DNA of 64,000 bases, taken from the NCBI RefSeq assembly GCF_000003815.2, contig NC_049984.1, positions 13,062,003-13,126,002 of the forward strand, read 5' to 3'. Position 1 is the stretch's first letter; the number at the start of each line of letters is the position of its first letter. The translations under genes and the position numbers were made by a program. Source of the DNA: Branchiostoma floridae. Lineage: Eukaryota; Chordata; Leptocardii; Amphioxiformes; Branchiostomatidae. The notes under the pieces are model-generated. The model ran no database searches. It was not told where the DNA came from and worked only from the letters and a program-made list of their open reading frames with translations. Of this stretch, positions 34,866 through 56,817 are shown in pieces.

Positions 34866-35030
34866 GTGTTTTATGTCTTCAAACATATCTTATTGGCAGG
34901 CAATTCAGATAAGTAAAGCATAGCTTAGGGGAATTATTAGAATACTCGTCCTGGAACTAGTTAGAGCTCTTTGAGCACATGAAAATTTTAAAAACTCCTT
35001 GATCAAAGACATGACATTTCTTGGTTTGGC

Positions 35031-35118
35031 CAAGCAAGCTCAGGTTTGAAAAAATTCAACCTCCTTGGTTTGTCAAGGTCCAAGGACGTTATATCAGATA
35101 TAACGTCCTTGGTTTGTC
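35031..35118. mobile_element. Two adjacent short palindromic insertions
   Basis: The first insertion, 35031-35067, runs from CAAGCAAGC to CCTCCTTG. The second, about 35075-35111, contains the perfect palindrome CAAGGACGTTATATC / GATATAACGTCCTTG. They lie in successive copies of the target word GTTTGGC/GTTTGTC (35024-35030, 35068-35074, 35112-35118). They belong to the same family as 35560-35580, 43173-43196, 52367-52391 and 56341-56361. Confidence 0.65.
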
Positions 35119-35559
35119 ACTTTGTAAATTTGTGTGTTGGTTTGTAGGTTTTTCCACGTGATAGTCAAGTTTTAACTGATAGTGATAATTTTTTCCTTGT
35201 GAGTTGATGTTGGTTGATAAAAATTATCAACAGAAACCCCGACATGTCAATTATTGCCGACGACTCGGCGGCTGGACATCACGGGAAGAAGAAGAAGAAC
35301 ATCAAGTCCTTGGTCTTACCCACCTTGTGACTTTGTTCAGAACTGCAGTGTGAATTTTTGACAAGATTCTCTATAAAATACAATGTTTTGTTTCAGATTA
35401 TATTTTCTTCCCACTTTAATCTTGTTTACTCTGATAAGACAAACAATGTATTTACCTCAGTGATGACAACTCTGTTACTTTGTTCCGTCATTTCTTATCA
35501 CTAACATTGTTCCATCATTGATTATTATCATTAAATGTTAAATGAAGGTTTGCTAATAG

Positions 35560-35580
35560 CAAGGAGGTTCAACCTCCTTG
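35560..35580. mobile_element. 21-bp palindromic insertion
   Basis: The 21-bp sequence CAAGGAGGTT-C-AACCTCCTTG is flanked by CTAATAG on the left and CTAATAA on the right (6 of 7 identical). The identical 21 bp occur at 56341-56361 with different flanks. It lies in the CMC2 5' intron. Confidence 0.8.
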
Positions 35581-35637
35581 CTAATAAATATCATAGTGAT
35601 AAAATACTTGATTAGATTAGATTAGATTAGATACACA

Positions 35638-35812
35638 ACTTACTCAAGCACCTGGATAAACTTGTAAAATGAGGTTTGTAAGTCGGTCAAATGTTTCAAA
35701 TCATAGAAAAAACACTGTTACACTTCTATCAGTGATTTACTATTTTTCCTCAAGCACTGCTGTCTGAAATGTTTGACCATTTACAAAACTTATCCAGTGA
35801 GTTGCTTGTATA
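35638..35812. mobile_element. 175-bp foldback element in the CMC2 5' intron
   Basis: The ends acttactcaagcacctggat and, inverted, tatacaagcaactcactgga both continue into (c)ggtcaaatgtttcaaat-type text, giving inverted repeats of about 55 bp with several mismatches. It is related to the repeat at 30010-30110. Confidence 0.5.
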
Positions 35813-35995
35813 ACATTTGTATTGTGTTTCTCATTTTACATGTATTTACCTCACCTCACCTCACCAGTCCCATAGGTCAGCATGTTGTTTACATGTATTG
35901 TAGTACCAAACAATTTGTGCCAAGCTATCCCTACTATTGCAGCAATTTGCAAACACTAATATTAAAATAACAATTGTAATTTCTGCAGTGACAAC

Positions 35996-37205
35996 ATGCA
36001 TGGTGACCTCTCCGCCCATCTGCACACTGATGAGTGCAACCGACTTATCCAAGCTCTACAGAAGTGTCACATAGAAGTAAGTGGCATTTTAGAGTAGTCA
36101 ATCAGCTAACATTAAAAAAAGGAGTATCTACATCTTGGCAATGCTTAACAGTGGATTAAGAAGAGTTGGCACCCCTAATGGTAAATTCATGACAGCTGGG
36201 AAAGGTTAACAGTAAATAATACTAAATTGATTATTTTGTCTTTGCGAAAGGTTTTTGGGAAAATCGCATTGGTTTGTTTCATTTTATTCAGTATCATGGT
36301 GTTTAGCAAACCAGTCTGAGTATGAATATGGGCACAACTGAACACCCATTGACTCCGGGATTAGAATATTTGTAAATACTGCTAATAACAATGAATTCTA
36401 AATACAAATGTAATAAATAACCTGCTACATGAAATAGCTACCATTTATGATTCACAAATAATGATTAATATTCAATTAGAGCATACAGGCTAGTTTTAGA
36501 ATAGGTTGCTATACCTTACAGGAAAAACAAAACCCTCCTTTAACAAAATCAAAAAATCTTTTGAGATATTGAGTGCATGCTGAGTTAGTTCTACAGTCAT
36601 TGTAGAAAGTTGTCTAACTTCTCTATCAAGTGCATGAGAATCAGGATGTCCTATCTTAGAAGAGTCATATATCATTTCGTTCAATCCTTTTCTGTACAGA
36701 ACCCGTATGGAAAATTCTTTGGGAAGTGCAACGAGCAGAATGCCTTGATGGATAGATGCCTTGCACAAGAGGTAAGGATTTCTACAGTATCAGTCAATGG
36801 CATCAAATTGAATGTACTTATGTATGGTGAAGAAGGTGTCTTTTATTTCTGTATCCAAGAAGTGCAGAAAATAGCACTTATGTAGTAGCCTAGTATCACT
36901 GCAGCTACAATCCAAGCTACCACACTTGTTTCATTTCTACAACTATCAAACTAGTTTCATGTATGTAACTTCACACATGGCTACCTCACTTTTTTGCTCT
37001 AAGTCAGGTGAAAATCGATTAGTGCATGGATGCCATCCATAAAATTGACTTGCTGTGGTCTTACTATGTTAATGTAATACAGTCTAATCTGTTTCCAATG
37101 CAGAGAGAAGACAACAGAAGGAAGAACAGAGAAAAAACTCAGGACAAGAGGAAGAAAATGCTAGAGGCATTACAAGCAAAAAAAGCTGAAGGGAATGTTA
37201 GATAA
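35996..37205 (+). CDS. CMC2: COX assembly mitochondrial protein 2 (twin Cx9C)
   Basis: Three coding exons, 35996-36076, 36700-36771 and 37104-37205, join at codon boundaries to 84 aa (human 79). The protein starts MHGDLSAHLHTDECN, matching the conserved CMC2 N-terminus. The twin Cx9C motifs are exact: C14-x9-C24 and C37-x9-C47, the pattern of small proteins imported and oxidised by the MIA40 pathway into the mitochondrial intermembrane space. A basic helical tail (NRRKNREKTQDKRKKM) follows. In the family the protein supports cytochrome c oxidase biogenesis. The ATG lies 9 bp after a splice acceptor (TTCTGCAG), so the 5' UTR is split, with the first exon probably ending near 34860 next to the CENPN promoter. 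Exons this short are individually below most gene-finder limits. Confidence 0.94.
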
Positions 37206-37687
37206 TCGATATTTTTATTACAATAATACAGATTTTAGTACACAACTGTTCACATCTTCAAAATGCAGTGGTTAATCGGTAATATAGTCATAGATTGAAC
37301 TTTTGTCATTGCACATTCAACTGAAAGTAAAATATTATTTTACTTGAGATGTACTCAGGGCACAGACTATTATTATACACTTCCTGGCAAGATAGACCAA
37401 TTGATGACATCACATATCCGCAAGATCACACGTTAATAAAATCACAAGTCTGCAACTCTCGCAAGCTACAGTATGTTCTGAAGTGATTGGTCATTAGTAT
37501 TGATCATAAAGAAGGAGATAGCGGCCGTTAAAAATTTGATCCGCATATACCTTTGTCTTAGTTTTTTTTTAGAAGAAAGTTAAGCTTTGTATTATGATTG
37601 CTACCAACACCAAGAGCTTCCAATATGATTTAACTTGTTGAGAAAAAAGAAGGTTTTGTATGGCTGTGACTTCTGAGGTTGATCCAC

Positions 37688-40600
37688 TCATAGCTTTGCC
37701 GGTGGTCGCCTGTCGCTGACAAGGTCACGATTAGACTTGGCCTCCTCCTGGTACACCTCCACCACCTCCCTGTACACATCCTCCTTCATGGCCTTCATCA
37801 TGGTGCGGCTAAATCCACTCTTCCCTACACACTCACGGGCCATTCTGGAAGTCAGACAAGTCAGGATGACATTATGAAATGATGAACAAACCTGTTATCA
37901 GTAAAGGTATCATTTCAAACTTCCGCAATGTAACAAACAACATACATACGCGTACTTTTCAGCAATGTCCTTTTCAAAGGTGTCCAACATACTCCATATG
38001 CAGCTCTTAATTCATCACAAATGGTTATACACCCATGTGGATAAATGGGCAAATTCCCATGTATGGGAAGGCTATGTATTTATTTCACTCTTAGAGCATT
38101 TTTGAGAAATACAAGGTGTAGAAGAGTCCACCATATTTTGTCAACTAACACAAAACTGTACTTTTTCAAAGCTTAAGTTTCTACATCTACAAGTGTATGC
38201 CCTTTAGTAGGGCTGGGTACCGGTACAGAAAATCCAGGTCCGGTTCAGGTCCAAAGGATCAGGTCCAGGTCCGGACCTGAACCTGGACCTGATGCAGTAT
38301 AACTCATACCAATTGTCCATTTCACTACAAAGAAATCTGTTTGGTGGAGTATTAGACTTACACTGGCGTTTTAAAATCCTACAACGCTAACTGCACCTGT
38401 ACAATTGACTGTAAACCTTGGTAGAAATTACTATAAACTCTACTTCACTCTTGCCATTTTCTTCCAACTGCAAGCGCCAAAACGTGTGAATGCCTGATAA
38501 AATAATATGTCAATTTTCTAATCGGTCCAACATCCGGTCCACCTAATTTTTTCAGGTCCGGTTTTTCTGGACCGGTCCAATAAGAAAAAATGGTTTTGTA
38601 CCGGTATGCTGTACCGATACCCAGCCCTACCCTTTAGGCCTTATCTTCAAGCAGATCTTCCAGTGGAATACAGTCTTAGCTGGAAGTTACATTTTGGCCA
38701 CCAGAAGATCTACTTGCCTGTGGATACTAAGTCAGAGTTGAGACCCTGTACCTGACAGCTTGATCCAGAAGCTGCTCCTGCTCACACACAGCATCCACCA
38801 CTCCCCTCCTGGCACACTCCTCTCCTGGGAACCGCTTCCCAAACAACAGGATGTCTCTCTGAACATCACCACCAGGCAGCCTCCTCCTGTAGGGTCCATC
38901 AGGAAAATGCAATGATTGAAGACCTTTGTTGCACATTTTTGCCACACCAGGCTAAGTACAGGTCACAACAAGACATGATGAAGAAATACAGTTAACAGAT
39001 ATAAAAGATTTTAAAAAACTTCTTGCTTTTCAAAACCATAGCCAATGTTGCAATCAGCCACTCAGGGCCAACTTTGCTACTATTGCATTGAAACAATCTA
39101 AGTACATGTAGATGGAATTGGTGTAAATTTCCAGATGGTGAAATGATGACTCAAAGTCCCAAAATATCTTTTGTCATTGAATTGAAGACAGAACCTCCTT
39201 GCAGCTTGCTTCCAAGTACAATAAATTAATGATATTTGAAATGATAAGTGGTAATGGTATTTACTGGTACATTATCCAATGATCATCATCATCATCATCG
39301 CGGGCTGCTTGCCCGGACCAAGTCCACCCTCTCCTTCCAGACGTCTCTGTCCCCCATAGCGTTCTTAATCCAATGATGTACTAGTGATAGGATGGTGAAC
39401 CAACATTAGAGACTTCTTAATGAAGTATTGAAAGGGAACTACTTTACTTGAGCAGTGACACCATTGCGGGGTCGAAGCGCAGCTCGAGGTATATCTCAGG
39501 CATGCAGAACCAGCCTTGCTTGGACCGCATCACCCTGTAGTCGTGACATACAGCCAACAGGGCACCGCCTGCAAAGCAGTGTCCTGAAACAAATGCAGGA
39601 TAGAGTCATCATGTCATATGATTTTACACAATTGATTGGAATTCTGGCCAATTTTTAAGTCTGTCTATATATTTAGAGAAAAGCACAATATTGAAAGTCT
39701 CACTGCATGGTTGACAAAAGCAAACTTACTGGTAACCAAGTGGTAGATGACATTGACTACATGTATTTTCTCAAACTTTGTGTAAATCAACATAAGGAGA
39801 ATTGCATGTGTGTGTGTGTGTGTGTGACTGATACATCTGTAGATACTGCAAATTAAAGGCTAAGAGTTCCTACCATTAATAGCAGCGATGGTAGGAAGGG
39901 GAAATGTGAGGATCCTCATCTTCACTTCTCCGAACTTGTCCAGAAACTGCCGCTGTACGTCCGGTCCTTGTGGCATCAGCCAGTCCAGATCTATCCCATT
40001 GGAGTAGAACTTCCCCACCCCAGTGGTGACCATAGCTTGGACATCTGGGTAACTGGGAGAAATAAGTGAACAGAAAACTAGAAGTCTTGGTCTTTCCATT
40101 CATGAACTGACTTCTAGTAGGTTTTTTAGAAAAAGTTGTCCAGTCCAGATAGCTGAAAACCTGTCCAGTCTGAAAAGAGGGTCTGCATTGAAGTTGCCGG
40201 CAATGCTTAATGCTAAATTCAGCAGGTTGGCAACTCCCATGGCAGGTTACTGTCGCTCGCACGGAGGAACCCCTCACTTGACCTGCTCCAGTCTTTTCTA
40301 CATCTCGCAGTTCTTAGATGTCTCTGCAGGCTGTCTCTCCATCTGGTGCATGGCTGCCCTCTTTGTCTCCTCCATTTAAAGGTAGGCAACATTCAAGCCT
40401 GAAACCAAATGCACCAACTGAGGGGAGGAATAAGTATTTCAGTTGCACTGTGTATATACCCACCACTGTGACAGGAATGTTCTGTCAATAGTGCCAAAAT
40501 CTTATTGACAGGAACATCCTGTCACTAAGTGCAAACAATCTTATTGACAGGATTATCTAGTAAATAGCGCCAAGAAATTATTACGGACAGGAACATCCTG

Positions 40601-40840
40601 TCAATAGTGCCAAAAATTCTTATTGACAGGAGCATCCTGTCCATAGCCTTTGTCAGCCTAGCTGTAATGACCTTTGATACTTCGAAAAACTAATATCACT
40701 GTTCCTACATACCTGAGTACCTTGTCCAATGCTGCATTCAGGTCGGCCAGGAATTTGAGGTTGAGTCTGTTCTCTCCCCGATCCATGGACACTATCGCCA
40801 CTTTCCCCCTCACCTCCACACTAATGTCACCACTGCCCAT
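37688..40840 (-). CDS. Peroxisomal enoyl-CoA delta-isomerase-like crotonase
   Basis: Five minus-strand exons (40840-40713, 40052-39874, 39583-39448, 38886-38752, 37844-37688) join in phase to 244 aa. Order of features: MGSGDISVEVRGKVAIVSM and RGENRLNL at the N-terminus; GKFYSNGIDLDWL (about 58-70), the first oxyanion-hole strand; NGHCFAGGALLAVCHDYRVM (about 101-120), the second; then MPEIYLEL, whose Glu is the expected catalytic base; RDILLFGKRFPGEECARRGVVD; and a C-terminal end PPAKL. AKL is a good type-1 peroxisomal targeting signal. The short length, lack of an acyl-CoA-binding domain and overall pattern resemble plant-type ECI more than vertebrate ECI1 or ECI2. The likely reaction is shifting cis/trans-3 enoyl-CoA to trans-2 enoyl-CoA for beta-oxidation. 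The acceptor of exon 4 (38886) is my best choice among close alternatives. Intron 4 holds a hAT-like MITE. The stop faces that of CMC2 across 482 bp. Confidence 0.85.
38208..38629. mobile_element. 422-bp hAT-type MITE with 8-bp target duplication
   Basis: The ends TAGGGCTGGGTACCGGTACA and, inverted, TAGGGCTGGGTATCGGTACA are flanked on both sides by the 8-bp word CCCTTTAG (38200-38207 and 38630-38637). Eight-bp duplications are the hallmark of hAT elements. The inside has repeated (a)ggtccgg/ccggacct phrases and no frame. It lies in intron 4 of the isomerase gene. Confidence 0.9.
39286..39300. repeat. (ATC)n microsatellite
   Basis: A short run of ATC trinucleotides in an intron of the isomerase gene. 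A (TG)n run also occurs at about 39805-39823. Confidence 0.85.
40466..40642. repeat. Minisatellite, four copies of a unit of about 44 bp
   Basis: Units read roughly cttattgacaggaacatcct followed by gtcaatagtgccaaaaat, with substitutions in each copy. Each unit contains a small palindrome around gacagga-catcctgtc. It lies within intron 1 of the isomerase gene. Confidence 0.85.
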
Positions 40841-43725
40841 TGTGTAGTAGATGTGTTAAGTGCAGAAAACACAGGATAACGATGCATAAAGGCTACGTAC
40901 CGGTACCTCGTCTTATACGAGTACGAACTGAACTGAACTAAAGTCGAGTACCCATAACACAGGGCATAGTTCAACTGTTGTCCGTACGGACGTTGACCTT
41001 TGACATCTGCTATTATTGTCTCGCACAGCTGTGGCAAAATGTGGTCTCTTAGTAATGTTAGACGTCTCATAAACGTAAACCCGTGATGCCGTGATGACTT
41101 CATTTATATGTATTGATGACATTCGCCCGCGCATCAATTTTCGTCCATTTCCAATGAATAAATTCGACGAAATGCGATCATACTGCAAATGGAAGCTGCA
41201 AAAAATCGGAGCAAATGGACTGAGTGAGCGAAGTCTTCCAAAAGCAAGGAAGAAGATGTTAAAAAAGCAAAAATGAAGAATCCGTTGTTGGTATATCATG
41301 TTCTGTGTGTTTGGTTATTTGTTTAACCTTCCTGGCCATTCAGATTTCATCTTGAAGGCAACTTTTTATCGCACATTCGCATTTTGTTTGGGGGAGGACA
41401 TCATCCATCTACAAAATATTAAAGTATGGAGTCTATGGACTGATGAGAAAAAGCGCTACATCCGCGTACATTTTCGGCCGTTTTCAAAAATAAAGAAAGT
41501 TATCAACCACACTGTAAATCGTACAAAGCAGCTGGAAAATGAGCAAATACATGCTGCAGATTGTCAAATAATATCGGAAAAGAAGTTTTTTAAGGCCACA
41601 GAATGCCAACGTAAATTCCAAGGACAAAGAAAAAGATGTGAAAGAACAAAAATGAAGAACCTATTGTTCGGCATACCATACCGATCTGTCATTTGGTCAA
41701 CTTTCGTAAGCACTTCATAATTATGACACTTGTTTTTTTACCAAACTTTTTTATTCGCACACTCGCATCAGTTTTGAGGTTCGAAGAGGATGTCATCCAT
41801 ATGATCAAATCAACGTGGCCTAAATGACCTTGACAATACAGCCCTGCAGCGCCAAAGCTTTCAATAGTTACAGACACGTGATCTTGCGGATACGTGACGT
41901 CAGCAATTGGTCAAACGCGATTACCACCAACACAGATGAGCTTCCATGTTAAACGAGAGATGCTTAGTCTTAAGGGCCGTCACACTGTTAATGACCGTCG
42001 GCTGGAATTTTTGATCGTCAGAAGATCGCAAATTTCAAAACCACTAGAGTCCAGTTTGAAGACATTTGATGGGTTTCGGTGACCGGCGAACGCGCAGTGA
42101 TCGGTAGGACACCGGCCGTATCACTGCCGAAAATGTCCATACAGCGTTCGCAGGCCGTCGGGTGAGCCTCAAGCCTTTTTCGGCTTTTGACGCCGACTTA
42201 AACATCTGAAGCGGGAAAATAGAAAATATTTGTCGTGTTCTAGACGTAGGAACTGCAGTTCAAGCCAAACAAACCATATAATGTATAACTTGTATAGTTA
42301 CAGTAACGTTTCCGTGCTGCTAAAACACAGGAAACATACATAACTTTCTGTGGAAATAACTTTGAAATATTACAAAGAGTTTGGGTCATGTTCAAAATAG
42401 ACCCAGATAGATACATGTTTGTGAACAATCAAGCTTCAGAATGCCTTTCCACCATTCCGATTTTTCCTCAGTAGAAATGTACCAACATTTATCCGCAGCC
42501 TCATAAAGGGCCATCGATCATCTGTAAGTTAAGGCACACCCAACCCGCGTAATGATAATTCGAAACGTGCATCATTAGAGTAAGAGGGACGCTGCGGATG
42601 GGTATTTGCGCAATTTTACTTGTGATAGAAAATATGACAGCTGGATCACATAGTTTTTGACTGATTGTTTATAGCTGGGTCGGAAATATGTTATTTTGTA
42701 AAAACAAAATTATATGTGTGCAGTTACCTACGACCTCTTGGCAAGGAACAAATGCAGCACATCATCATACATTAGTCCATACATCAGCTACGGGTTTGGT
42801 TTGAACACACCCAAAATATGGTAATATATGTATTTTGGGTTATAACGTTAGGTGATAAATATGGCCTATTTAGATTATATACATTTTGCGGTTTGGGTGT
42901 ACTTCAACCAAGTTATTAACTTTTCTAACGGTTGAGAAGATACAATTGACACATCAGGCTATTGTTAAAACAAAATTCATTTGATAAAAACATAAGGTAG
43001 CTATGAATATAAACAAGCAAGACCATTAGTCTTGATCGTTAGCAACATAAAAGAGGTACTACAAAAATTCGTCATCTCTGAAACAGCGTAAGTCCGTTGC
43101 GTGGTTTGAATATTTCATAAGTCACTCATTGCAATTGAAACCTTTAGAACTCACCGCCTTCACTTCTCTGATCAAGGACGTTATATAACGTCCTTGCTCT
43201 GATATTAGTTCCACCCATTTTTATGACCTGTTCATTGTGCTTTCTTCTGAAAAGTAGCCATCGCCCAGAAACGAGCGGTGTAATTATAGTCTGACGAGAG
43301 AAATATTGAAAAATAAACTCGTGAAATAAGCAATTGTTTTCTAGGTACAAAAATGGTTCTTATGCTAAGTAGATCTAGTAGAATCATTCGTGACAATAAT
43401 CATTGTTTTGACTCCTATTGTCTCGCGACAAACGAATCATTATAAGTAATATAACAACATTATGGTTTAGCCCATGTATTCATGACGTCATGGAGGTTGC
43501 TAATGGGCTGCCCGAAATCGATCATTAGATATAGATGTGTGGATTGCCCGAGTCTGTACAGTGTGTCCATCTGAGGAAGGTTTTGTCTTTGCACTGTTTT
43601 GATCACTATTTACCGTCAAAATTGGAGACAAAACTTTAAAAGTACATTGACTGGACCTGAGACAACATTCCCACCTGTGTCTCTTTGCGTAGACTGTAAA
43701 GGACAGACCAGTTTATAATAGAAGG
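40841..43725. other. Gap between the isomerase gene and the signal-peptide exon
   Basis: No gene was recognised. From 41098 to 41830 a repeat-derived segment is partly duplicated: aagatgttaaaaaagcaaaaatgaa near 41.25 kb resembles aagatgtgaaagaacaaaaatgaa near 41.63 kb. The segment starts and ends with inverted copies of the GATGACATCC-type repeat, so it is probably a decayed transposon. The 140-codon frame inside (41298-41720) has no recognisable domain. A palindromic insertion lies at 43173. Confidence 0.5.
43173..43196. mobile_element. 24-bp perfect palindromic insertion with 7-bp target duplication
   Basis: CAAGGACGTTAT/ATAACGTCCTTG is a perfect 24-bp palindrome flanked on both sides by CTCTGAT (43166-43172 and 43197-43203). 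It is a member of the short palindromic family described under findings. Confidence 0.85.
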
Positions 43726-43798
43726 ATGGCTTTACGACACGAAATTGTCGTCAGGTTCACCTGCTGTATCATTCTTATTTGTGCCGCAAGTGTGAAAG
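43726..43798 (+). CDS. Signal-peptide first exon, probably of the downstream multidomain gene
   Basis: The ATG opens 24 codons, MALRHEIVVRFTCCIILICA then ASVK, and the first base of a Gly codon. A good donor, GTAAGC, follows. A basic start, hydrophobic core and small residues before the end make a classical signal peptide. The exon ends in phase 1. The next plausible coding exon on this strand, 57274-57522, starts with the two bases needed and would continue as [11 protein letters not shown]. Linking the two across a 13.5-kb intron full of transposons is inference from phase and sense. Another, unseen partner exon is possible. Confidence 0.6.
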
Positions 43799-43892
43799 GT
43801 AAGCCCTATTGCTATCATCAAACTGTTGATTCAGAATACGATTTCTGCACTGGCTCGATCATCAAATGGAGACGAACGTTTATGGTATTTTT

Positions 43893-44635
43893 TACTCTCC
43901 AAGCAGAGGTCGAATCGCGCAGATATAGTAGTAGTCGAAAAAATTACACTCGCGCTCTTCCTACCTCTGCCACAGAACGGAACAGTACAAGGCTATTAAA
44001 TCTAATCACCTTGACACATTCAGGGCGTTTTGTAACTAGGTGCTAAGTCTTGGACGGGAGTTAGGAGTTTCTGCCCGCGCGCCGCGGGTGTTTCCTGTCT
44101 GCCAGTCGGAGCAAACAACACCCCATAAAATCGGTTGTGGCCGAGTCATGATAACGTCAAAACAAGCCATTATTTGTGTCCCTATGTTCTAGAAACGTTG
44201 GACAATCGCTTGTAGGTACGGTCAGATGTCAAACAGAAGTTAGAAACGAGATTTGTCCAGTCATAGTTGACGTTCTAAAACTCAGGCTTCACGCACTGCT
44301 GGCCGTTTTGCGACAACCGCATGCAGCCGTAAAAGTAATTCACTCGCGTTTTTCGCAGTTTACCACATGCTCAGATTAGCGTGTTCATCTATTGAATTGA
44401 CAATTTACTAATTCATATATTAACATGTAATTTATATTTGTAATTGATGCAAAAATATTTTCAGGGTGTAGAAAGTTACGTTATGATACTTTCAATGTAC
44501 CGGGAAGGAATGACGTCGGCCATTGTTGTCAGTGAATAGAGATCGCAGCGGGTGCTGGCGCGGCCCGCTGAACATGTGCCGGGCGCGCGACTACTACTAC
44601 TATATCTGCGCGATTCGACCTCTGCTTGGAGAGTA
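43893..44635. mobile_element. 743-bp element with inverted ends of about 45 bp
   Basis: The left end tactctccaagcagaggtcg, continuing cgcagatatagtagtagtcg, is repeated inverted at 44588-44635. The first 88 bp (43893-43980) are repeated exactly at 52640-52727. The element starts 94 bp inside the intron after the signal-peptide exon. No clear target duplication was found, and no transposase. Confidence 0.75.
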
Positions 44636-45361
44636 GTGACGAGTAGTGTCCATCTAGGCGTGCGTCCGTCCCCTCGAGTGTGAGAATGGCGCGGTCTGAG
44701 GTGTCGTCCGCCCAGCAACCCAGGCTGGTGTATCCGCTTGCTGTGTGAGGAAGGATCAGTTCGTTAATTGCAAAATGGAATTTTTCTACTTTTGTTCTTC
44801 TTTTAGGACGCCGAAAAACAGTTACTCAATCAACTTGATCCCAAATCCCGTTGCTTGAGTAACTGCGATTTGGCCTATGTGTACTTCATTGGACAAGTAG
44901 GCAAATTTGTGTGTTTTGTTTTGGGTGTCTTGAAAAAAAAAAAAAAAAACAGGATTCCTGTATATATGCAACACACTTCGGTTGATCTAAGGCGGCCCAG
45001 GCACGCTCGATTTGTGTTCGACTTCGGGCGCGTGTCCCCTTGTCCAGCCGAATTCGAACTATATTCGATGACGTTCCATTACGTAATTCGAACCGAACGC
45101 GCATTCGAACCCGTGGTTATTTGCGACCTTTCAATGTAAACACGCACCGCAAGGACCTTCTATCCTTTGTGAATGCCCAGCTCAAAATAAGAGTATTGAT
45201 GTTCATAGTACTCACGTTTTACTTATACTCCCTTTCTTATCGAAATTGTCCGAGGGTATTTTGTGCAGTCATTTAATGTTTTTCCTATGGTGCATTTTCA
45301 ACGAAAAATTGAAAAAATATAGTCGTTTCTGATGTTTTTGGCCCCCCAAAACAATGTAATC

Positions 45362-46442: not shown

Positions 46443-47604
46443 CCGTTAATGTCAAACAAAATACCCTCGGATGAAAATGATAAGTATGAGGTAGGCTTTT
46501 ATTCCTTAGAATACCATGATAGGAGGTCCTATTTCCACCTTGCCATAGACCTATGAAATAGACACCACTTTTTTTTACCAAAATGTGTATTTCTAGCCCG
46601 AAATCCGGTATGTAACACAACAAAATCACAAGTATTCAATGTCTTTCAAGTAGTTCTTAAACTGTGTGAGTTTTTATCGAGATGCGACCAAGGAATCAAA
46701 AGATATATTCATATGTATAGAATACTACTTCTAGCCAACCGAGACCATAGATGCCAATACAGCAGCCCGGACACAACATTAAACATATACCTCAGCACCG
46801 GACATATGGTCTAGTCCTCACTCATAGTGAGCAAATGAGCTGGTCGCAATCATCATGTTTGATTTAGGGCGAAGAGATGCGGTTACAGTTACAATGCACA
46901 TGTAACCTTGGAGTGGCCTTCAGGTATTGTTACGTGGTGACCATAAAAAAAAGATCGATCGAGTGAAAACAACACTTCTTACTGACGCGTCCTTCCAGCC
47001 ATTTGCCTCCTGAATATTTTATTCATCTAATAAAGAATTTCTACACGGCTGCACGTGTGTCTTTTGAACTTTTCTATAAAAAAGAACTAACGTTACTATC
47101 AGTGCTATTAGTCCAGGCGGAGATACCTGAAAACAATGTGGTTTCGTAGCCACCCAGTACTTATTCAGTTTAGGTCTCTTTATGCAAATTTATGCAAGTT
47201 AGGTGATTATGTCCGAAATTAAAAATGAAACAGCATAAATTAAGTAATACTTGTGCAAATAACATGAAAAAATTTCGTCACAATTGGAAGGAGAGTGTTC
47301 ATTTTCTGATAATTAGAAGTGCCTATCTCGTTTCTATGGCAACCATTGCTAAAGAAAAGATAATTCCACAGCAACGGGGAGGCCTATGGTTTTCTACAGC
47401 CATTTGAAGTACATGAAAGTCATCCATTCATGAAGCAATTGTTGTATTTCATAGCAACAATAATACAGTAACCTAAGAATCTCCTCCTGGACTATATATA
47501 GTAGTCCATAAAAAACGTAAATGTTGCAAGCACTTAACATTAATTCGCCTAATTACATAAATCCATTACTGTACTTTGAAAAGCATTGTGGTTGAGAGAT
47601 CTCT

Positions 47605-47765
47605 ATTGTAGCATCAGGTGCCCATTTTTACACCTGGTTGGAGTGAGGAAGGTCGTGTAAAGTGCCTTTCCCCAAGGACATAACGTCAGGGCACGGCGGG
47701 TATTGAACTCGCGACCTCTTGATTCCGAGCCGAACGCTCTACCAGTTACGCCACACACGACGCCA
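47605..47765 (-). repeat. tRNA-derived SINE with clear A and B boxes
   Basis: On the minus strand the head reads gtggcgtaactggtagagcg (A-box region), then aggtcgcgagttcaatacccg (B-box region), then a tail ending cttggggaaaggcactttac. The head is tRNA-like, but the acceptor stem is not complementary, so it is a SINE and not a tRNA gene. The tail is shared with the copy at 31530. Confidence 0.75.
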
Positions 47766-47967
47766 CCCGAGTTTGCGCGGATCTTCCGTGGTAACATTCT
47801 TTATCAAACGAACACAAATAAACAAGAACAGACGGGATGACGGTGCACTGAAGTAAATACAACTTATTTGAGCGCCGCCATCATACATGAACAGATTTTA
47901 ACAAGCAAAGATGGCTGAACAGGTAAATGAATGCAAATATCGTTGAAGAGGTTCATCAGTCACGTTA

Positions 47968-48106
47968 TGCATACATGTACTATCAATTTTCTTCCAAGGT
48001 AGAGTGGTACCTCCAAATTTTCGACGCCTGACTTTATATCTTGGACCAAGACGTGCTGTCAGACATCGAAAATTTGGAGAAAGAAAATTGATAGTTAATG
48101 TATGCA
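47968..48106. mobile_element. 139-bp foldback element
   Basis: The inverted ends tgcatacatgtactatcaat and tgcatacattaactatcaat extend through ccaaattttcgacg/ccaaattttcgatg, so nearly the whole element folds back. It lies in the long putative intron. Confidence 0.75.
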
Positions 48107-49052
48107 AGTGTTTCATAGCACCGTAAGAAAGACAATTAAGGTCATACATGTGTCCTAAGATCCTTGAAAGCTAGCCGAGGAGAGCTATGATTACTAATGT
48201 TACAACACCCTTTTCCCTGCATGCCTTTCTCAATGTAATCCGTATATAAGACGTCTGTATTACAGAAATATACTTGTGCTGAGAGTTTGCTCATTTCTGT
48301 TACACAAAACAGTTGGATCAATGAATTGCACGTTCGTGTTGGGACCGTTCTCAGTGAAAAGTGCAAAAAAGCGAATTTAGCCCACAAATGATGGCTTATT
48401 TTTCGAAAAGTGCAAAATAGCGATTTTAGCCCCAAAATGACAGCTTATTTTTTCTTCGATATATATAGGTTATGTATTATAGTCAAACGTAAGATATGTT
48501 GCTGGTAACGTTTGTTACAACAGTACCATTTAGCTTTTTCTTCGGAATGATTTTCGATTTTCAGCTAAACCATTAAACCATATCGGTTTGGGTGTCTGAG
48601 TACGAGAACATACGGAGTGCCTAGCAAAAAGAAGGTCGGGTTTCCGGTCGGGTAAACGAAAACACACCATTTTCTCCGGGGGATTTATAAACTGGGCAGC
48701 GTTCTTACACCAGGTCAAATAAATAACGTAGAAACAATTGAACAATAATAACGTTTGTTACGTATACAGTCATTACTGTAAAACAGTTTGTACGCATGAA
48801 AGGCTACAACAATCCTTTCTTTTTCCTCTAGGAAGACAGAAAAACTATAAAATGTCACAAAACGGCATTTTTGTGTATGGTATTTGGCTAATACCTACAC
48901 AAGTAAAGTGACCTCGATAGACTAAACGTATTTTGTACTAACACAGCACGAAATCTGGTATTTAAGCAAGCTTAAACTCAACGTAAACGCGACGTTTCTG
49001 CACCCTTTCCGCAACTTAACGACTTCTTTCCGTGTTACCTTTACGTTGGCAC

Positions 49053-50390
49053 TTAGGCTAGGGTCACAATTGGCCCGGTGCCCGTCAGGGATGTAGCCCC
49101 GGCCGGGCTCTGAAGTCGGGCGGACACCGGCTGTTTACCGGCTGTCGTGGTCACAATCAAACGTTGCCTTCGCGCTGCCCCATGGGGGTCCCGGAGTGTT
49201 CCGGCGGGCACCCCGTCATTTTTCTTTAAAAAATTTCCACCTTCCTAGGTTCGTCTCCGGCAGACACCCGTCAGATGTTCTGACGGTGTCCTGTAGTCAC
49301 CCCTGCGGGGTCCGACAGGGTAACGTTTGTCTCTCACAGCCCGGTGGGGCAGTTGTAGGGTCCCTGCCGCATGCCCTGCGAACAACGGCAGGGAACCAGG
49401 CAGGCTCCTGGTGGGCACTCTTTAAGGGGTATAAAAACAAGCATTGCCTGCATTCACTTAAGATAGTACATCATTGAACTTGGAGTACTGGTGCGGTACG
49501 TCGGGGTCCGTTCACTGCGGCACGGTTTTTTTCGCCAACTTTTCCTCGCACTCGCACTGACGTGCGGCACTGTTACGTTTCTAAACTAAACTAAATAAAC
49601 ATGTTATTGGAATTTTTAATGTCGGCGGATGACTTGCCAAACTGTTGAGGCCTATATTTTTATATTTGTAAAACGAAAAAAAATGGCTTATGGGTCCGAA
49701 TGACTGCAAGTTTGGCGTTCCGTCGGCCAATTGCAGAGGAAACGTCCTTCTTCAGCCAAACATCTTTCTTCAGCTTGTTTCTATAGTCTGGGGTTGTAAT
49801 ATCGTAAAAAACATAGAAGCTTTCTATGAAGGAGGCTATCTGTTCGTCCTGCTTCTCAGTGATGCAGCCTATTATGTGGTCTGTTGCGTGGTGTGTTGTC
49901 CTATCCCCCTCTGTTCAGCCCTTGTCTGCAGAAGTTTCTGTTGCTGAATTCTTCCGCCTGCCTAGTGGGCTAAGGGCTGTTTCCCCTGGTCTTCTCCTTT
50001 CCCTTGGTATAGCGCTATGCACTTAACTCCACTGTAATACGAGAACTGTGTGATACGTGTAAGTTCACGGCTTTTGTCCTTTCACGTGATCTGTGACGTC
50101 ACATATTTGACCCGGTGTTACGAATTACACACTTTTATTCCGACAGACTGCCGGCAACCGGAGGGGTCCCTCTCGGTGTTGTCACGATTAGGTCGCGGGG
50201 TGGTTGTACGAGCGGGTCCCTGGTTCATTTTAACTCAGACTTAAATTGAACCAGGGTCCCGGCCGGGCCTCAAAATACCCCGGCAGCCGCGAGGTGTCCC
50301 ACAGGGCAACGCAGGGGTCACGCCCGAAAGTGCCAAAAAACAGCCCGTGAATTGCCCGGCAGGGCCCCTTTTTCGAATTGTGACCTAAGC
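49053..50390. mobile_element. 1.3-kb GC-rich TIR element
   Basis: The ends cttaggctagggtcacaatt and, inverted, gcttaggtcacaattcg share CTTAGG-(5-bp gap)-GTCACAATT. Just inside each end are GC-rich ggcccgg / cccggccggg runs that also pair. The interior has many ggtccc/ccgg words and no transposase. The composition differs sharply from the AT-rich surroundings. Confidence 0.6.
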
Positions 50391-51439
50391 CTTATAAGTA
50401 CGGTTCTGCACTTCTTAACGTGCCTTTCCGCAGTAAGACGCTTAAAGGCGTCGTTAATAACAGTATTTCCATATCCTTAACGGGCGGAAAGCGTGCGTTT
50501 CTTTAGACTTTTCCGTGATATTTTGACCACCTTTACACTCGATTTCCGTTACGATTTCCCCCACGTTTATGTGTCGTTCATACAGCCTGAAAGGTACGTG
50601 AAGATGTGCAGAAACGTACCTATTTGAACGCTTTCCGTGATATTTTCTTGGACTATAATTGTCATTTATTTTTAGGAAAGGCGGCGTAATTTTAAACCTT
50701 TCCGCATCTTTAGGTTGGCTTTATGTGTTTTGTGTGGCTTAACTTTCCGCACCATGTGCATTGGGTATGCGTGTCTCATTTGGTTCGAATCATACCTACT
50801 AGGTACCTGAGGCTTCTTCGTCTAACTATCTTTTAATTCTTATTGTGGACTTGGATTGGTCGACCGAGGGAACAATTGGTGTACAGTATCCACGAATCTC
50901 CGCTACATGCAAGTCCACAATTTGGAGTCCAGTGTCGGGCGATACGACTGGAAAGACATCATTTCAAGGACCATTTAGTTCCATCTTGTCATCACAGTAG
51001 GAAAATTCGGTATCGGACTCCAGAAGATGTTTCGTGATGGTCGTGCTCTCCATGTAGTCTCCGCCAGCTGATGCTGGTCAAGACGACACAATCTTGAATT
51101 CACCCTGAGTTGTGCCCCGTTGAAAATCTCCAGCATACTCCGTTTCCAGCAAGCCGTGAGTGTCCTAGTATTCGTTCCGTCTTGTAGTTCCGTCGGAATC
51201 CATATGAGGCAAGACCACACCGATAATCCGTGTGTTGAAACGGGTCCAAGGTTCCTTCGTGACTTGTCCCGAAACAGACGCCCTGCAAACTGGTTTCTTC
51301 TATAAATTCTGGCATATTTGTTAGGTTTAAAAATCCCACTCTTGTCTGTCATTGGATAACGTCCCATCACATGACACACGTGAACTTCTTCTGGGAGCTG
51401 CTAATTAGAAATTCAATGCCGCGTTGTTCGTTATTCCAC

Positions 51440-52330
51440 TGTTCATTGTTCATTGTTCCACTAGACATAGATATTTCCGTTCGACTTGTAAAATATTGGT
51501 TGTGTTTAACACAAATGGATTATACTAAGCATCCGTTACAAGTAAATGCACTCTTGGAACAGCATAACTCCGTCGTAAACGGCCGGAGAAGATCATTGTT
51601 GCAGCGTGTTAAAGAAATACTTGATTATAGTGGATATTCTTATCTCTGGTACTCTGACAACTCACTCTATGACCCTGTATATGTATGTAATATGATAAGG
51701 AACAGAATTACCAATATGTATATCCAGACGTCTCTACATAATACAAGTATAGATACCGGTAAGCTGAGATTCTACAAAACTTGTAAATCTGTATACGCTA
51801 GAGAGAAGTACTTAGAACTAGTTGATTTCGAGCTGCGCTCCGCAATAAGCAAAGTCAGAATTAGCGCTCATCCTCTAGAAGTGGAAAGAGGGAGATACAA
51901 GAGATTACCAGTGTGTGAAAGGATTTGTAAATATTGTACATCTAAAGCAGTGGGAGACGAAACACATTTCATTTCCAAATGTTCATTCAACGAAACCGAA
52001 AGAATCACCCTGTTTAGAGAAGTCACAAAGACTTATCCCAACTTCCCCACATTGACAGACAAACAGAAGGCCACTTTTCTCTTGAAATCGCAGAACCCAC
52101 AAATTTTAGAAAATGTGGGGCTTTTCGTCTCCCTCTGCTTCCAAAAAAGAAGTCAAACCCAACCTGCTTAGAAATAGCCAACACTAGTATTAGATTAGAA
52201 CATTGTTTATGACTGTCCATTGTCACTATGTGTATACCATGTACTTGCAATTAGCCCTCGGGCACGAACTTGCAAATAAACTTCTGTTATTCATAGTTGA
52301 CGGGGAATAAATTTGAATTTGAAAAAAACA
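51440..52330 (+). mobile_element. 5'-truncated LINE: reverse-transcriptase C-terminus and 3' end
   Basis: A frame within 51371-52171 encodes the tail of a non-LTR polymerase protein. It contains SVRLVKYWL, SKVRISAHPLEVERGRYKRL and a CKYC...H...C cluster (about residues 190-210) followed by LFVSLCF near the stop at 52169-52171. The 'RISAHxLxIExGRY...C-x2-C...H-x3-C' pattern is a known C-terminal domain of animal LINEs. A 3' UTR follows, ending aataaatttgaatttgaaaa. The polymerase core is missing, so the copy is dead. It is fairly young, since the last 230 codons are intact. Confidence 0.8.
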
Positions 52331-52366
52331 CCATCCCCTTTGTACACTGTTAAGCCTAGGTTTAGC

Positions 52367-52391
52367 CAAGGAGGCTCTTTCAACCTCCTTG
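52367..52391. mobile_element. 25-bp palindromic insertion with 7-bp target duplication
   Basis: CAAGGAGG-ctctttcaa-CCTCCTTG is flanked by GTTTAGC on both sides (52360-52366 and 52392-52398). Same family as 56341-56361. Confidence 0.85.
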
Positions 52392-52639
52392 GTTTAGCTA
52401 AACACAACAACTGCTACCACACTAGAAAATTCCAACCTTTCTGGGAGAGCATGATTACTTGTAGATGAAAAATGTTCTTCTAGACAAGGAGCTAAGAAAG
52501 TTTTTTTTTTTGTCAATTATATGAACTGAGAACAACAAACCCGACCATCGCTATATTCCCATGCATACGTTACCGTGTAGTGAGGACGCTATGTCGTCGG
52601 GATGCCAAGCTGCAGGGCACAGCCATCCACGAACGACAT

Positions 52640-52727
52640 TACTCTCCAAGCAGAGGTCGAATCGCGCAGATATAGTAGTAGTCGAAAAAATTACACTCGC
52701 GCTCTTCCTACCTCTGCCACAGAACGC
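52640..52727 (+). repeat. 88-bp exact copy of the 43.9-kb element end
   Basis: This is identical to 43893-43980 and is a solo end or a truncated copy of the 743-bp TIR element 8.7 kb upstream. Confidence 0.85.
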
Positions 52728-52773
52728 ATAAGGGCGGGGATATCCTTTCAAAATCCGTGTTAGAAGCTTAGGC

Positions 52774-53527
52774 CGACTTTAGACAGACAACACTTTCATA
52801 GTTGTGCGACTGTTGTTGTCGACAATATTTTTAGGCTGTCTAAAGAGGATCAAAATAGTCGTGCGAGGGTTTTTATGGAATCATCGTGGGACCACCTCGG
52901 ACCCAGTCGCGCAACCCTTCAGCGGGGGTCCGTGACTATTCCTCACACGTCTAAAGAAAAATCGTCGCCGGCGACGGGACTGGATCATATGCAAATAAGC
53001 CTGCAGCATGTTTTTTGTCTATTTGAAAGGGCATTTTTCTCCGTAAATATACATGCAGTCAGTAATGGAAACGTATTTTTGTCATCAGAAACTGCCTGTT
53101 CCAGCGCAATGTTCCGCCACCAGTGGCTACATCCTTCATGATACTAGTAGTAATCTGTAATACCACCGGCGGCCACGAACGCCGGGTTTAATTCCAGATT
53201 TTCCCGTCTCTGTGTCATTCTTTGTTGGGGACAATGTTTGTTTGCAAGCAAAAGAATAGTAATCTGCTGCATGACGAAAATGAAGAATTCTCCCGCCATT
53301 TTTAATTTGCAAGCAAGAGGTCACTGTGGGTCACGCACGCACGCATCGCAGTGGAATCCTGCGCCGCGGGTGTCCCGCAATACTCTGAACGCATGTCTAA
53401 AGACATTATCGTTGCCCACAACGAATAGTTAATAACAGTCGCTGTTGTCTGTTTGAAGTGGGCCTTATTTATTAAGAGGATCAAAGATCCTCTTTAGACA
53501 GCCTAAAAATATCGTCGCCGGCAACGG
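52774..53527. mobile_element. Probable insertion interrupting the gypsy element
   Basis: The words atttttaggctgtctaaaga (followed by ggatcaa) near 52829-52855 and their inverse near 53483-53507 lie in opposite orientation. Both are next to tcgtcgccggc-type words. The right part abuts the gypsy RNase H frame exactly where that frame loses similarity (53527). A non-autonomous DNA element that cut the retrotransposon is the simplest reading. The borders are approximate. Confidence 0.45.
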
Positions 53528-55760
53528 GTTATTGTCGGTATAGACCGTGAACTTAGAGCCATACAGATGATCCTTGAACTTTTCTGTTACTGCCCACTTC
53601 AAACCTAGCAACTCTACCTTAAACGAACTGTAGTTATCCATGTTCCTCTCAGCTGGTCTAAGTCTTCTTCTTGTTCTCGTTATGATACTGGGCAACACCC
53701 CTAGTTTGTTGGGGCAAACCACCCAGGGCGTAGTGCTGTTGTTTTATTGGCTGTTCCTCAGATGTTGTAATACCTCTTCCTTAAACTTAAGAACCATATG
53801 CAATAACTTTCTCTTTCCCATCCTGCACTTGAGATAAAACGGCCCCTAGCATCGATGAACACTACAAAAGGTAGACTGTAATCAGGATAGGCTAACACGT
53901 CAGCACTCATCAAGTGGTGACGTAAAGTATCAAATGCCTTCTGACACTCATCTGTCCATACAAACGGTGGAGGTTTGCACTGTCCCTTCTTCTTCGCTGC
54001 TGTTAAACGATGCAGAGGGGCGGCTATCTTACTGAAGTCCTTTACAAAACGGCGATAATAGGAACAAAAGGCAACGAATGACTTGAATTCTTTAGGAGTT
54101 CTCGGCACTGGCCAATCACGTAATGCGGCACAATTCTCAGGGTCAGTGGCTACTCCATCTGCCGAAACTACGTGACCTAAGTATTTCACTCTTCTTCTGA
54201 ACAAATGGCACTTGTCTGGCCGAAGTTTCAATCCGTATGACTTGAGCCTGGTGAAAACCAAGTCAAGGCGAGACAAATGTTCGTCAAAGTCTTTAGAGAA
54301 GACAATTATGTCATCCAAGTAAATAAGTAGTGCTTCAAGGTTCTGATCGCCTAGACAACGCTGCATTAATCTGCTAAAAACCGCTTCCGGTCAAACCCAT
54401 AGCCATACGATCAAATTCAAGTAATCCAAACGGTAGGCAAAATGCAGTCTTTTCTCGGTCTTTTTCATTCATTTTCACCTGCCAATACCCACTAGCTAAG
54501 TCCAGGGTCGAAAACAGGCTAGCCCCCTGCAGCGCATCTAAAGATTCCTCAATACGCGGTAACGGAAATGCATCCTTATGTGTCCTTGCGTTCAGCTTAC
54601 GGTAGTCAACACAAAATCTTAAACCTCCATCTTTCTTCCGGACGAGCACAACTGGTGATGCCCAGGGACTACAGCTCTCCCTCTACCATATCATTAACGT
54701 ATTGCTTAACTTCCTGGTACAGAGCAGGAGGAATTCTTCTGTAAGGCTCCCTGGTGGGAGGTGAATCACCAGTTGGTATTCTATGCGTTACTGCTTCAGT
54801 GCACCCAAAATCATGTTTATGTGCGGAAAACACATCAGAATGCTCGCCTAGGAACTTCTCTAACTTGTCTTTCTGCTCCGTTGTTAAATCTGCTCCCGAC
54901 AAGTCAACCTTAGGACTATTACTAGTACTAGGGACCTGGGGTTCTTCTTCCCCGGTGCACGAACGGAAATCTACCCGAATCTCGTGCTGACTTACTTCTT
55001 CAAATTCTATATTTCCCTGAGGTTGGATTTCAGCCTGATACAATTCTACCATGACTGCTTTGTGGCTTATTTGAATGTAGTATTCTGCGACATTGGCTAC
55101 TCGAACAGGTACTCTACCGTGCCTAACTTGTGCATAAGTACGAGCCACTAGAATATCCTTTGGACGAAGACAACCTGTTTCTGGGGGCTCAACTAACACA
55201 GTATAGGGTTTACCGTCTGGTCCAGGGCGTGCTCTACAAAACAAAATCATCTCATGACCGGCCGACACAGTTACCTTGTCCCTACCAGAAACACAAACTA
55301 CCTTTGTACTACCAGAAACACGTGCAAGACCAATTCGGCCATCTTCCCTTGCGAACGATTCTTTTTTCTTAATCGACACTTAATCGACTTGACGGTTTCA
55401 TTCCATACCTGATCTAGATTTTGCTCATTCTTAACATCTGCACCAAACGGTTGGTCCCCGAATTCTTGCAGAACATTCATACCTAAAACACCTTCCCCCT
55501 CATCTTCTACAATGATTACTCCTCGTTTTGGTAACACTTTCCCCTTGAATTTAACATCTAGTTCACAATAACCAACACATTTGATGGGAAGGCCATTTGC
55601 TGCTGTTAACTTGAGCCAGCTAGTGCTGTCCCTCATTATCCCTCAACCTTTCCCCATCGTTACCAAAGTTAGCCTTAAAACAACTATATGTGATGGTGGT
55701 GACTTGCGATCCAGTATCAATAAGACAAGGCACAGTTTTCCCTTCAAAAATCACATCCCT
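53527..55760 (-). mobile_element. Degenerate Ty3/gypsy LTR retrotransposon pol region
   Basis: Reading on the minus strand, there is an aspartic-protease active site (LIDTGSQVT, about 55715), then linker sequence, then the reverse-transcriptase start (about 54700). Next come the palm-domain blocks VRKKDGGLRFCVDYRKLN and FSTLDLASGYWQV (54649-54470), the catalytic YLDD (about 54318), the RT thumb, and the RNase H start with YTDNN (about 53540). At least three frameshifts or stops break the frame: between protease and linker, before the palm, and after GLTGSGF. RNase H is cut off, and integrase and both LTRs are not found. This is a dead copy in the putative long intron, opposite to the host gene. 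Confidence 0.88.
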
Positions 55761-55936
55761 TACATTTGTTTTCTACCTTTGTACTAATATTAACTATATT
55801 TGTAATACGTCGCCAGGGGACGGCTCCGTTTCGAAAGGGGAGCATGTAACAGGGTGCCCCTGTTCTATATGATAATCTAGCTAGTAAGTTCCTTGTACTT
55901 TCCAAGATCCCTATGCTAGAACTTAGTAGAAGACTG

Positions 55937-56335
55937 TGTTAGTCACTCTTTACCCGCTCTGTTCTGAGAAATAGGTTGAGTAGGCGGTTTGACTAATGAC
56001 CCAAAGACAGCTAAAGCACCTCCCCTGTGGACCACGCCATATATGGGCATGGTCAGGGGGTGAATTTAGGAAGTGACTCAGGATGACGAAGATACAAGAA
56101 TGTACCTTTTTCTGAGAAATATGTGTGTAGGCGGATAAGAAACATATAAATAAGGAAATAGAACCCATGTACTCAGTTCAGCTTTGGGGAGGGAGAGAAT
56201 ATAGACAGTGTTCCATGTAGCTCTGGCTCTGTCGTCCTTGGTTCGTCGCACACACCTACAAGACCTGCAGCTATCCTACGAATTCTGTAAGGGACGCCTT
56301 CGAAGTCAAGGTCACGACCAACTACACCCCTTACA
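55937..56335 (+). mobile_element. Possible solo LTR or other promoter-like repeat
   Basis: The stretch starts TGTTAG, ends CTTACA and has a TATA-like ATATAAATAAGG at about 56144 followed by an initiator-like CTCAGTTCAGCTTT. That is an LTR-like layout on the plus strand. It is not in the same sense as the neighbouring gypsy remnant, and no 5-bp target duplication is visible. Confidence 0.3.
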
Positions 56336-56340
56336 TATAC

Positions 56341-56361
56341 CAAGGAGGTTCAACCTCCTTG
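56341..56361. mobile_element. 21-bp palindromic insertion with 7-bp target duplication
   Basis: CAAGGAGGTT-C-AACCTCCTTG is flanked on both sides by CATATAC (56334-56340 and 56362-56368). The 21 bp are identical to 35560-35580. Confidence 0.9.
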
Positions 56362-56454
56362 CATATACCTGAATTTTCTGTACTGATACCTCCACCTACC
56401 CCTACCAACTGAACAATAGATTTTTTTTCTTTCTGTCCTTTCAGTTTCCCATCC

Positions 56455-56817
56455 CAGGGCTCGAAATACTGGGTGCATGTGCACCCAGGTGCACCCAAAA
56501 TTGGAGCTGTGCACTCAATTTTTTTCTGTGGGTGCACCTGGGTGCACCCAAATATTTTCGTAGGCTTATGTATGTAAAGATGTCAGTATACTATTAGACA
56601 CCATACTCTTGACATCTATATGTTAAAAAGATAATAAAGTGTCTGTCATAGTACTTATTTGAAGTTGGAATTTGTGTTCATCGATCTTTTCAATGCCCCA
56701 AAACTGTGTGATATTTTGTTTTATTTTATGTGGTGCACCCAAACATTTTTGGTGCACCCAATTTTCTAGGTTGGGTGCACCAGTGCACCTAATCCCAAAA
56801 ATGAATTTTGAGCCCTG
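56455..56817. mobile_element. 363-bp hAT-like MITE rich in GGGTGCACC
   Basis: The ends CAGGGCTCGAAAT and, inverted, CAGGGCTCAAAAT are flanked by CATCC on both sides. The interior repeats ggtgcaccca and its inverse at least seven times. The end sequence is hAT-like, but only 5 bp of target duplication can be seen instead of 8. Confidence 0.7.

Follow-up and report, generated by a model that had tools for sequence, protein, structure and literature searches.

Six short near-palindromes of the form CAAGG...CCTTG, each accompanied by copies of a short target word, lie in the window analysed here, a stretch of 64,000 nucleotides (nt) of the Branchiostoma floridae genome (contig NC_049984.1, positions 13,062,003 to 13,126,002 of the forward strand). 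Judging from the sequence of these palindromes and of their relatives elsewhere in the genome, we think it very probable (about 0.92) that they are excision footprints, or scars, of cut-and-paste transposons of the P superfamily. The six are given below with their flanks; no strand is assigned to them, and the C11 element is a complete transposon described further on.

35031-35067 (with flanks 35024..35074): probable old scar, altered; left end CAAGC, right arm CAAGGAGGTTGAA, imperfect duplication GTTTGGC / GTTTGTC
35081-35111 (with flanks 35068..35118): putative excision scar of 31 bp; fits 17 + 14 nt of the end CAAGGACGTTATATCAG with a CAG overlap
35560-35580 (with flanks 35553..35587): putative excision scar of 21 bp; CTAATAG / CTAATAA (6/7); fits the first 13 nt of the end of the C11 element
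43173-43196 (with flanks 43166..43203): putative excision scar of 24 bp; end CAAGGACGTTATAT joined over ATAT, perfect CTCTGAT duplication
52367-52391 (with flanks 52360..52398): putative excision scar of 25 bp; 8 nt + 17 nt, perfect GTTTAGC duplication
56341-56361 (with flanks 56334..56368): putative excision scar of 21 bp, identical to the product at 35560; perfect CATATAC duplication

The sequence-only reading of this stretch had described six palindromes bounded by CAAGG...CCTTG. All six were located, with two corrections: the one at 35031 starts with CAAGC, and the second palindrome of the adjacent pair is 35081-35111 (position 35075 starts AAGG). The perfect 7-bp duplications that it reported at three palindromes were seen at 43173-43196, 52367-52391 and 56341-56361, and the 21 bp that it found identical at two loci indeed recur at 35560 and 56341 in differing flanks. 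Its description of the remaining flanks, as matching at 6 of 7 positions or sharing a target word, holds for 35560 (6/7) but not strictly for 35081-35111, where the directly adjacent 7-mers agree at only 3/7; there GTTTGTC occurs on both sides, the left copy being six bases off (AAGGTC lies between). Weakest among the six is the palindrome at 35031-35067, which has the appearance of an older copy that has since changed.

The ends used to read the window scars were deduced from related scars, as was CAAGGACGTTATATCAG, or from the scar itself at 52367. The 17 nt of the latter agree over exactly that length with a related longer end, CAAGGAGGTTGAAAGAGGG (C1:10092319). Two scars sit around one target word both in the window (35024-35118; GTTTGTC) and at L063 (C1:5574652; GTTGAG-), as if the target had been hit again beside an earlier scar, or the scar had been duplicated.

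Abundance, flanking repeats and empty sites

When the window was scanned for inverted repeats with arms of at least 8 nt and adjacent direct repeats of 6-12 bp, exactly the three perfect cases emerged, and none in any of 20 first-order Markov windows. With the arms lowered to 7 nt and low-complexity rows omitted, two more places appeared: 50221-50253, with a 7-bp flank, and 56485-56541, with one of 6 bp. The former is a 33-bp inverted repeat of another end type, TGGTTCA...TGAACCA, with GGGTCCC on both sides, a flank that is itself self-complementary or nearly palindromic.

Outside the window we sampled 200 kb in stretches set at round coordinates before inspection (L009-L028). Together with the window they contained 20 pairs of CAAGG and CCTTG at most 60 bp apart. 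The flanking repeat was exactly 7 bp long in eight of these pairs, 6 bp in one and 0-1 bp in 11; six control words in the same sequence gave a 7-bp flanking repeat in 0 of 88 pairs. When decay was tolerated, with one mismatch for the duplication and two for the ends, the same sequence yielded 12 matches, including the scar at 52367 read a second time; 59 permuted words gave 0.66 matches on average and never more than 4. Six of the 12 matches lay in the 200 kb beyond the window, which may translate into roughly 15,000 scars genome-wide, with a wide error. The strict pattern CAAGGANNTT-N1-30-AANNTCCTTG occurred 3,345 times in the 513 Mb of the genome and its reversed control nine times. A looser genome search, with 21,944 matches and at least 10,000 in its control, is less telling than the strict pattern. 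A chance origin is ruled out by the Markov windows, the control words, the permuted words and the reversed genome-wide control.

Flanks of 150 bp were retrieved for 49 of the 50 listed places of the strict pattern, in listing order; the fiftieth lies in L001. These 49 places had a perfect 7-bp duplication in 29 cases, one with a single mismatch in 14 and an 8-bp repeat in two (L034, L054). Four had neither (L053, L055, L066, L073), of which L053 and L055 are copies of one repeat. The duplication was perfect in 18 of 20 further scars, the other two showing one mismatch and an 8-bp repeat, respectively. L001 also contains a 15-bp scar with a perfect duplication. The excess of flanking 7-bp repeats that the sequence-only reading had proposed to look for across the genome is therefore present, both in the strict pattern against its reversed control and in the duplications at most of the 69 sites. 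The 29 perfect duplications of the first set show base preferences: G at position 1 (17), T at position 2 (20), A at position 6 (22), and C (14) or G (10) at position 7.

The same reading had called for empty sites with a single 7-mer, and these were found within the same assembly for two scars in all, through sister repeat copies for one and an inverted local copy for the other. The scar at L051 lies in a repeat for which 40 places were scored out of 1,671 candidates, one being L051 itself. We retrieved 12 of the other 39, and all 12 were uninterrupted, with neither the 35 bp nor a second copy of the target. Their single target word was GTTCAGG in L109 and GTTCGGG in most, with other base differences in L107 and L112. 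At L081 the adjoining inverted local copy is empty as well, with 63 bp aligned without gaps and one GTCAAAG. The empty sister copies of the L051 repeat argue that something large departed from the site, rather than that something small arrived.

Proposed excision model and parent elements

Drosophila P elements leave footprints at their donor sites that consist of end stubs between two target copies. Passages in three papers (PMC7776569, PMC10983969, PMC11368186) describe an unusually staggered cut for the Drosophila P transposase: one strand is cleaved at the edge of the element, the opposite strand 17 nt further in. By analogy, we suggest that the cut was made in the same way in B. floridae. 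A large element with CAAGGA... ends would insert and duplicate 7 bp of its target; on later excision, the transposase would cleave one strand at either edge of the element and the opposite strand about 17 nt further in, so that each chromosome end would retain about 17 nt of the terminal repeat as a single-stranded tail. That the tails stay on the chromosome (donor) side would follow from the geometry of the cut, the cited passages describing the transposon's own ends. The two tails being identical, they could pair only through short self-complementary stretches, such as CAG with CAG, ATAT, TTGAA around a mismatch, or AGCT. End joining through these stretches, together with trimming and gap filling, would produce near-palindromes of about 13-40 bp between the target copies. 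Microhomology end joining, perhaps by polymerase theta, is the repair route that we infer. As in a footprint, two end stubs are joined between two target copies, and the empty ancestral site carries one target copy.

If a P-type 17-nt stagger was the source of the palindromes, the genome should contain P-type elements that have CAAGGA ends and duplicate 7 bp of target, and we then searched for them. Of the 10 best-scored candidates of a genome search, three matched PF21787, the Pfam model of the P-transposase core, and two of these lie in complete elements that were read end to end:

C19:10308832-10317273: C19 parent element, 8,442 bp, ends CAAGGAGCTTTTATCAGGAGGAGA, duplication CTCTAAC
C11:17071456-17080139: C11 parent element, 8,684 bp, ends CAAGGAGGTTGAATAAGGGAAAGG, duplication AAGTCAT

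Both elements have perfect inverted ends of at least 24 bp and perfect 7-bp duplications, in line with the short repeats and 7-8-bp duplications of the P superfamily. They are the larger transposons that the sequence-only reading had suggested looking for, and they bear out its view of the palindromes as two fused transposon ends with target duplications of the same length. The N and C parts of the RNase H core were matched in both (PF21787, E = 8.6e-22 and 6.5e-21; PF21789, E = 3e-8 and 3.3e-7). The GTP-binding insertion was matched in the C19 element (PF21788, E = 1.9e-5), and the single exon scanned in this region of the C11 element (L033:2414-2779) gave no Pfam match. The model of the P helix-turn-helix (PF12017) matched the C19 element weakly and below the model's cut-off (E = 0.042).

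The N-terminus of the transposase matched the RAG1 domain PF12560 in both elements (E = 1.7e-10 and 7.2e-10; L032:1692-2600 on the plus strand and L033:4748-5509 on the minus strand). We take this match to indicate a probable zinc domain of the RAG1/Chapa type. THAP was not matched in the transposase frames, nor in 10 upstream frames selected from the two elements, a subset of their frames. Classified by their core, the two elements are thus members of the P superfamily and not canonical THAP-type P elements. A search of the C19 transposase frame against PDB with phmmer returned no matches. Both elements contain a second frame, of 362 aa in one (L032:6674-7762, minus strand) and 351 aa in the other (L083:3943-4998, plus strand); the two are alike by eye and have no Pfam match. 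In the C11 element, a weakly C2H2-like exon lies immediately upstream of this second frame.

A 13-bp scar with a perfect ATGTATC duplication lies inside the C19 element (C19:10309676-10309688), which indicates that such elements hopped into each other. In 288 kb (the window, 20 stretches of ten kb and eight loci of three kb) we looked for further elements that share these ends and measure at most 9 kb, and found nothing beyond scars; elements of 8.5 kb would mostly overrun the ten-kb stretches. Scars are likely to outnumber intact elements. The window also contains frames at 53758-55379 (minus strand) that resemble, by eye, the reverse transcriptase part of a Gypsy-like retrotransposon.

Arm lengths, joints and rival explanations

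We searched the genome for scars of the C19 end and obtained 302 forward and 303 reverse matches, and none in the control. This search demands 15 nt of the end on one side and 8 on the other, and therefore under-counts short arms but not long ones. Arm lengths were taken from the 70 distinct places listed, which come from the first part of the genome, by comparison with the full 24-nt C19 end. The longer arm measured 15 nt in four of them, 16 nt in 21, 17 nt in 33, 18 nt in seven, 19 nt in three, and 20 and 24 nt in one each, i.e., 17 nt or less in 58. Among the 12 scars above 17 nt, four join arms of 17 nt or less exactly, the next base matching by coincidence, and six are one 31-mer whose additional G fits a variant of the other end (ACC for ATC). 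One 27-mer has no such explanation, and one 51-mer is truly long-armed, probably by partial gap repair.

The palindromes might instead be elements shrunk internally by failed gap repair, and not joined stubs at all. The 51-bp case, with 34 nt on one side, 17 nt on the other and a perfect duplication, would suit this explanation, as would a palindrome of 54 bp and the arms of 18-22 nt in other end families. Such shrinkage should, however, leave arms of any length, and those of the C19 family pile up at 15-17 nt and drop above. Longer products are also scarce: 418 places fall in the 41-70 bp class (control 9) against 3,345 at 21-50 bp, an eightfold difference between ranges that overlap. We therefore regard internal deletion as highly unlikely. 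Many of the 50 matches listed for the longer class are, by eye, two neighbouring or nested scars, or scars with a central filler, e.g., CAAGGCC. Scars of about 42 bp with CAAGGCC-like fillers (e.g., C1:23894947-23894988) resemble the copied fillers of theta-type end joining. The likeness of the filler to the end sequence itself suggests copying during repair.

The stop at 17 nt in the C19 family also bears on another possibility, that joined end fragments were freed by abortive transposition and inserted elsewhere. It would account for near-perfect palindromes, including the 54-bp one with arms of about 26 nt. Yet the ends of a released element should continue past 17 nt into its interior, where the C19 family mostly stops, and the target duplication would require a second, separate insertion step. 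We give this account almost no credence.

Excision footprints should differ in their joints, as repair joints do, and in a mixed set of 59 scars from several end families (49 retrieved scars minus L055 and L068, plus 12 others) the joints did differ between sites. In the C19 family, 38 of the 70 scars consist of two arms, each of 17 nt or less, joined exactly and with no base added. Thirty-one exact joins have a 17-nt arm, and 13 of these are one and the same 31-mer, the commonest product, in which two 17-nt tails overlap by their terminal CAG (C-G, A.A, G-C). This recurrence has p of about 4e-6 under a crude uniform null, two of the 13 being copies of one event. Eleven further exact 31-mers (L085-L095) were flanked by nine perfect 7-bp duplications, one with a single mismatch and one 8-bp repeat; two of them are copies of one repeat. 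Counting L064 and L082, the 31-mer was seen at 12 sites with differing flanking words. The recurrent overlap of the tails at CAG would place the same apparent insert at unrelated sites. The window scars fit this joining rule when read with the deduced ends: 35081 by the CAG overlap, 43173 by ATAT, 35560 and 56341 by self-pairing of TTGAA, and 52367 as 8 + 17 nt.

The repeated 31-mer, with its differing flanking words, speaks for minimal mobile elements, i.e., palindromes of 20-40 bp made of two fused ends, mobilised in trans and duplicating 7 bp on insertion; the perfect duplications at most checked sites agree with them too. But recurrent pairing of identical tails already predicts identical products, and a mobile element would explain neither the variable joints nor the stop of the C19-family arms at 17 nt. 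Moreover, according to passages of one study (PMC1562414), P-type ends require much longer sequences: 138 and 216 bp in Drosophila, and a little under 100 bp at the ends of mosquito miniature inverted-repeat transposable elements (MITEs) derived from P. Mobile palindromes of this kind thus seem very unlikely. A MITE in the usual sense is also disfavoured: the palindromes have almost no interior sequence and variable joints, not many near-identical full copies with an interior. Among the options offered by the sequence-only reading, the 17-nt stop and the variable joints thus favour end-to-end joins over the insertion of a tiny element or hairpin.

Several observations weigh against excision footprints of P-type elements as a complete account. 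In the C19 family, 32 of the 70 scars are not exact 17-nt joins and can be explained only with an extra base, a mutation or a variant of the end; several scars are 36-39 bp long, above 2 x 17; and three pairs among the 20 scars retrieved are single events copied with their surroundings, so that the 70 include copies. The 17-nt limit is clean only in this family. For the mixed set we subtracted the matched arm from the scar length, a difference that gives the longer arm in the absence of added or mutated bases; it is 17 nt or less in 36 of the 59 scars and larger in 23, mostly 18-22 nt (18 in two, 19 in eight, 20 in one, 21 in five, 22 in two, 23 in one, 24 in two, and 28 and 29 once each). Mutations may end the match early in some of these, and added bases, unlike ends or a stagger of 18-19 nt in other families may account for others. 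The 54-bp near-perfect palindrome mentioned above (C1:10092319-10092372) has two arms of about 26 nt each that belong to the end CAAGGAGGTTGAAAGAGGG, far more than 17 nt. Finally, parents were retrieved for two ends only and for none of the CAAGGACGTTATATCAG family (window scars 35081 and 43173), and no such ends were found within the 9 kb retrieved around the third match to the P core (C6:14994104, L105).

Known systems and meaning

The Drosophila melanogaster P element is among the closest parallels, with its RNase H core carrying a GTP-binding insertion, its end-stub footprints and its 17-nt internal cut, a stagger that the C19-family scars would mirror. It differs by its 8-bp duplications and THAP domain; the B. 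floridae elements duplicate 7 bp (rarely 8), have a RAG1-type domain together with a second gene, and are accompanied by fixed scars in the thousands. Fly P excision sites are frequently repaired by recombination, according to passages of PMC11368186. Galileo, a member of the P superfamily in Drosophila, has duplications of 7 and occasionally 8 bp with consensus GTATTAC (passages of PMC4168063). The duplications described here share this length, and the perfect ones tend to start with GT and to end in A followed by C or G. In contrast, Galileo is described as having a THAP domain and terminal repeats of great length (PMC3688188). The zebrafish system Pdre2 / THAP9 likewise has a P-type transposase and excises in cells (passages of PMC10983969), but with 13-bp ends starting CATACC, 8-bp duplications and at least 50 related genomic sequences. 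The P-MITEs of Anopheles gambiae are also non-autonomous and built of P ends; passages of PMC1562414 give them an interior unrelated to P and 8-bp duplications, whereas our palindromes have almost no interior.

The same passages state that all known P proteins have a THAP domain. A 2015 paper, in the part consulted, found the Chapa domain (the N-terminal zinc domain of RAG1 type) encoded by no transposable element then known outside the Transib/Chapaev group (PMC4411706). In the titles, starts of abstracts and selected passages of the open-access literature searched, neither genome-wide P-element scars nor a RAG1-type domain on a P transposase was reported; one paper among those listed, PMC10027918, does mention P elements together with Branchiostoma floridae. 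Footprints of P type are known in kind; what is new is their scale, the natural record of the cut, and parents with a RAG1-type domain where the canonical P element has THAP.

A broader proposal is more tentative, and we hold it at somewhat less than even odds. B. floridae would harbour a P lineage with a RAG1/Chapa-type zinc domain and a second gene of its own that excises far more often than it persists, so that intact elements would be rarer by orders of magnitude than the scars, of which there would be on the order of ten thousand. Such scars would then be a heritable germline record of the repair of long-tailed breaks, with the fillers pointing to joining by polymerase theta. For the annotation of repeats, our results are a warning that such palindromes are probably scars and not MITEs. 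The combination of a P core with a RAG1-type domain, if this is a true Chapa domain, bears on the exchange of domains among transposases. Each scar names a transposon family by its end, a cut, a target by its 7-mer and a repair joint, and is in this sense a readable record. With thousands of scars in a single genome, one could measure earlier transposition, the choice of targets and end joining in the germline of an animal without any experiment.

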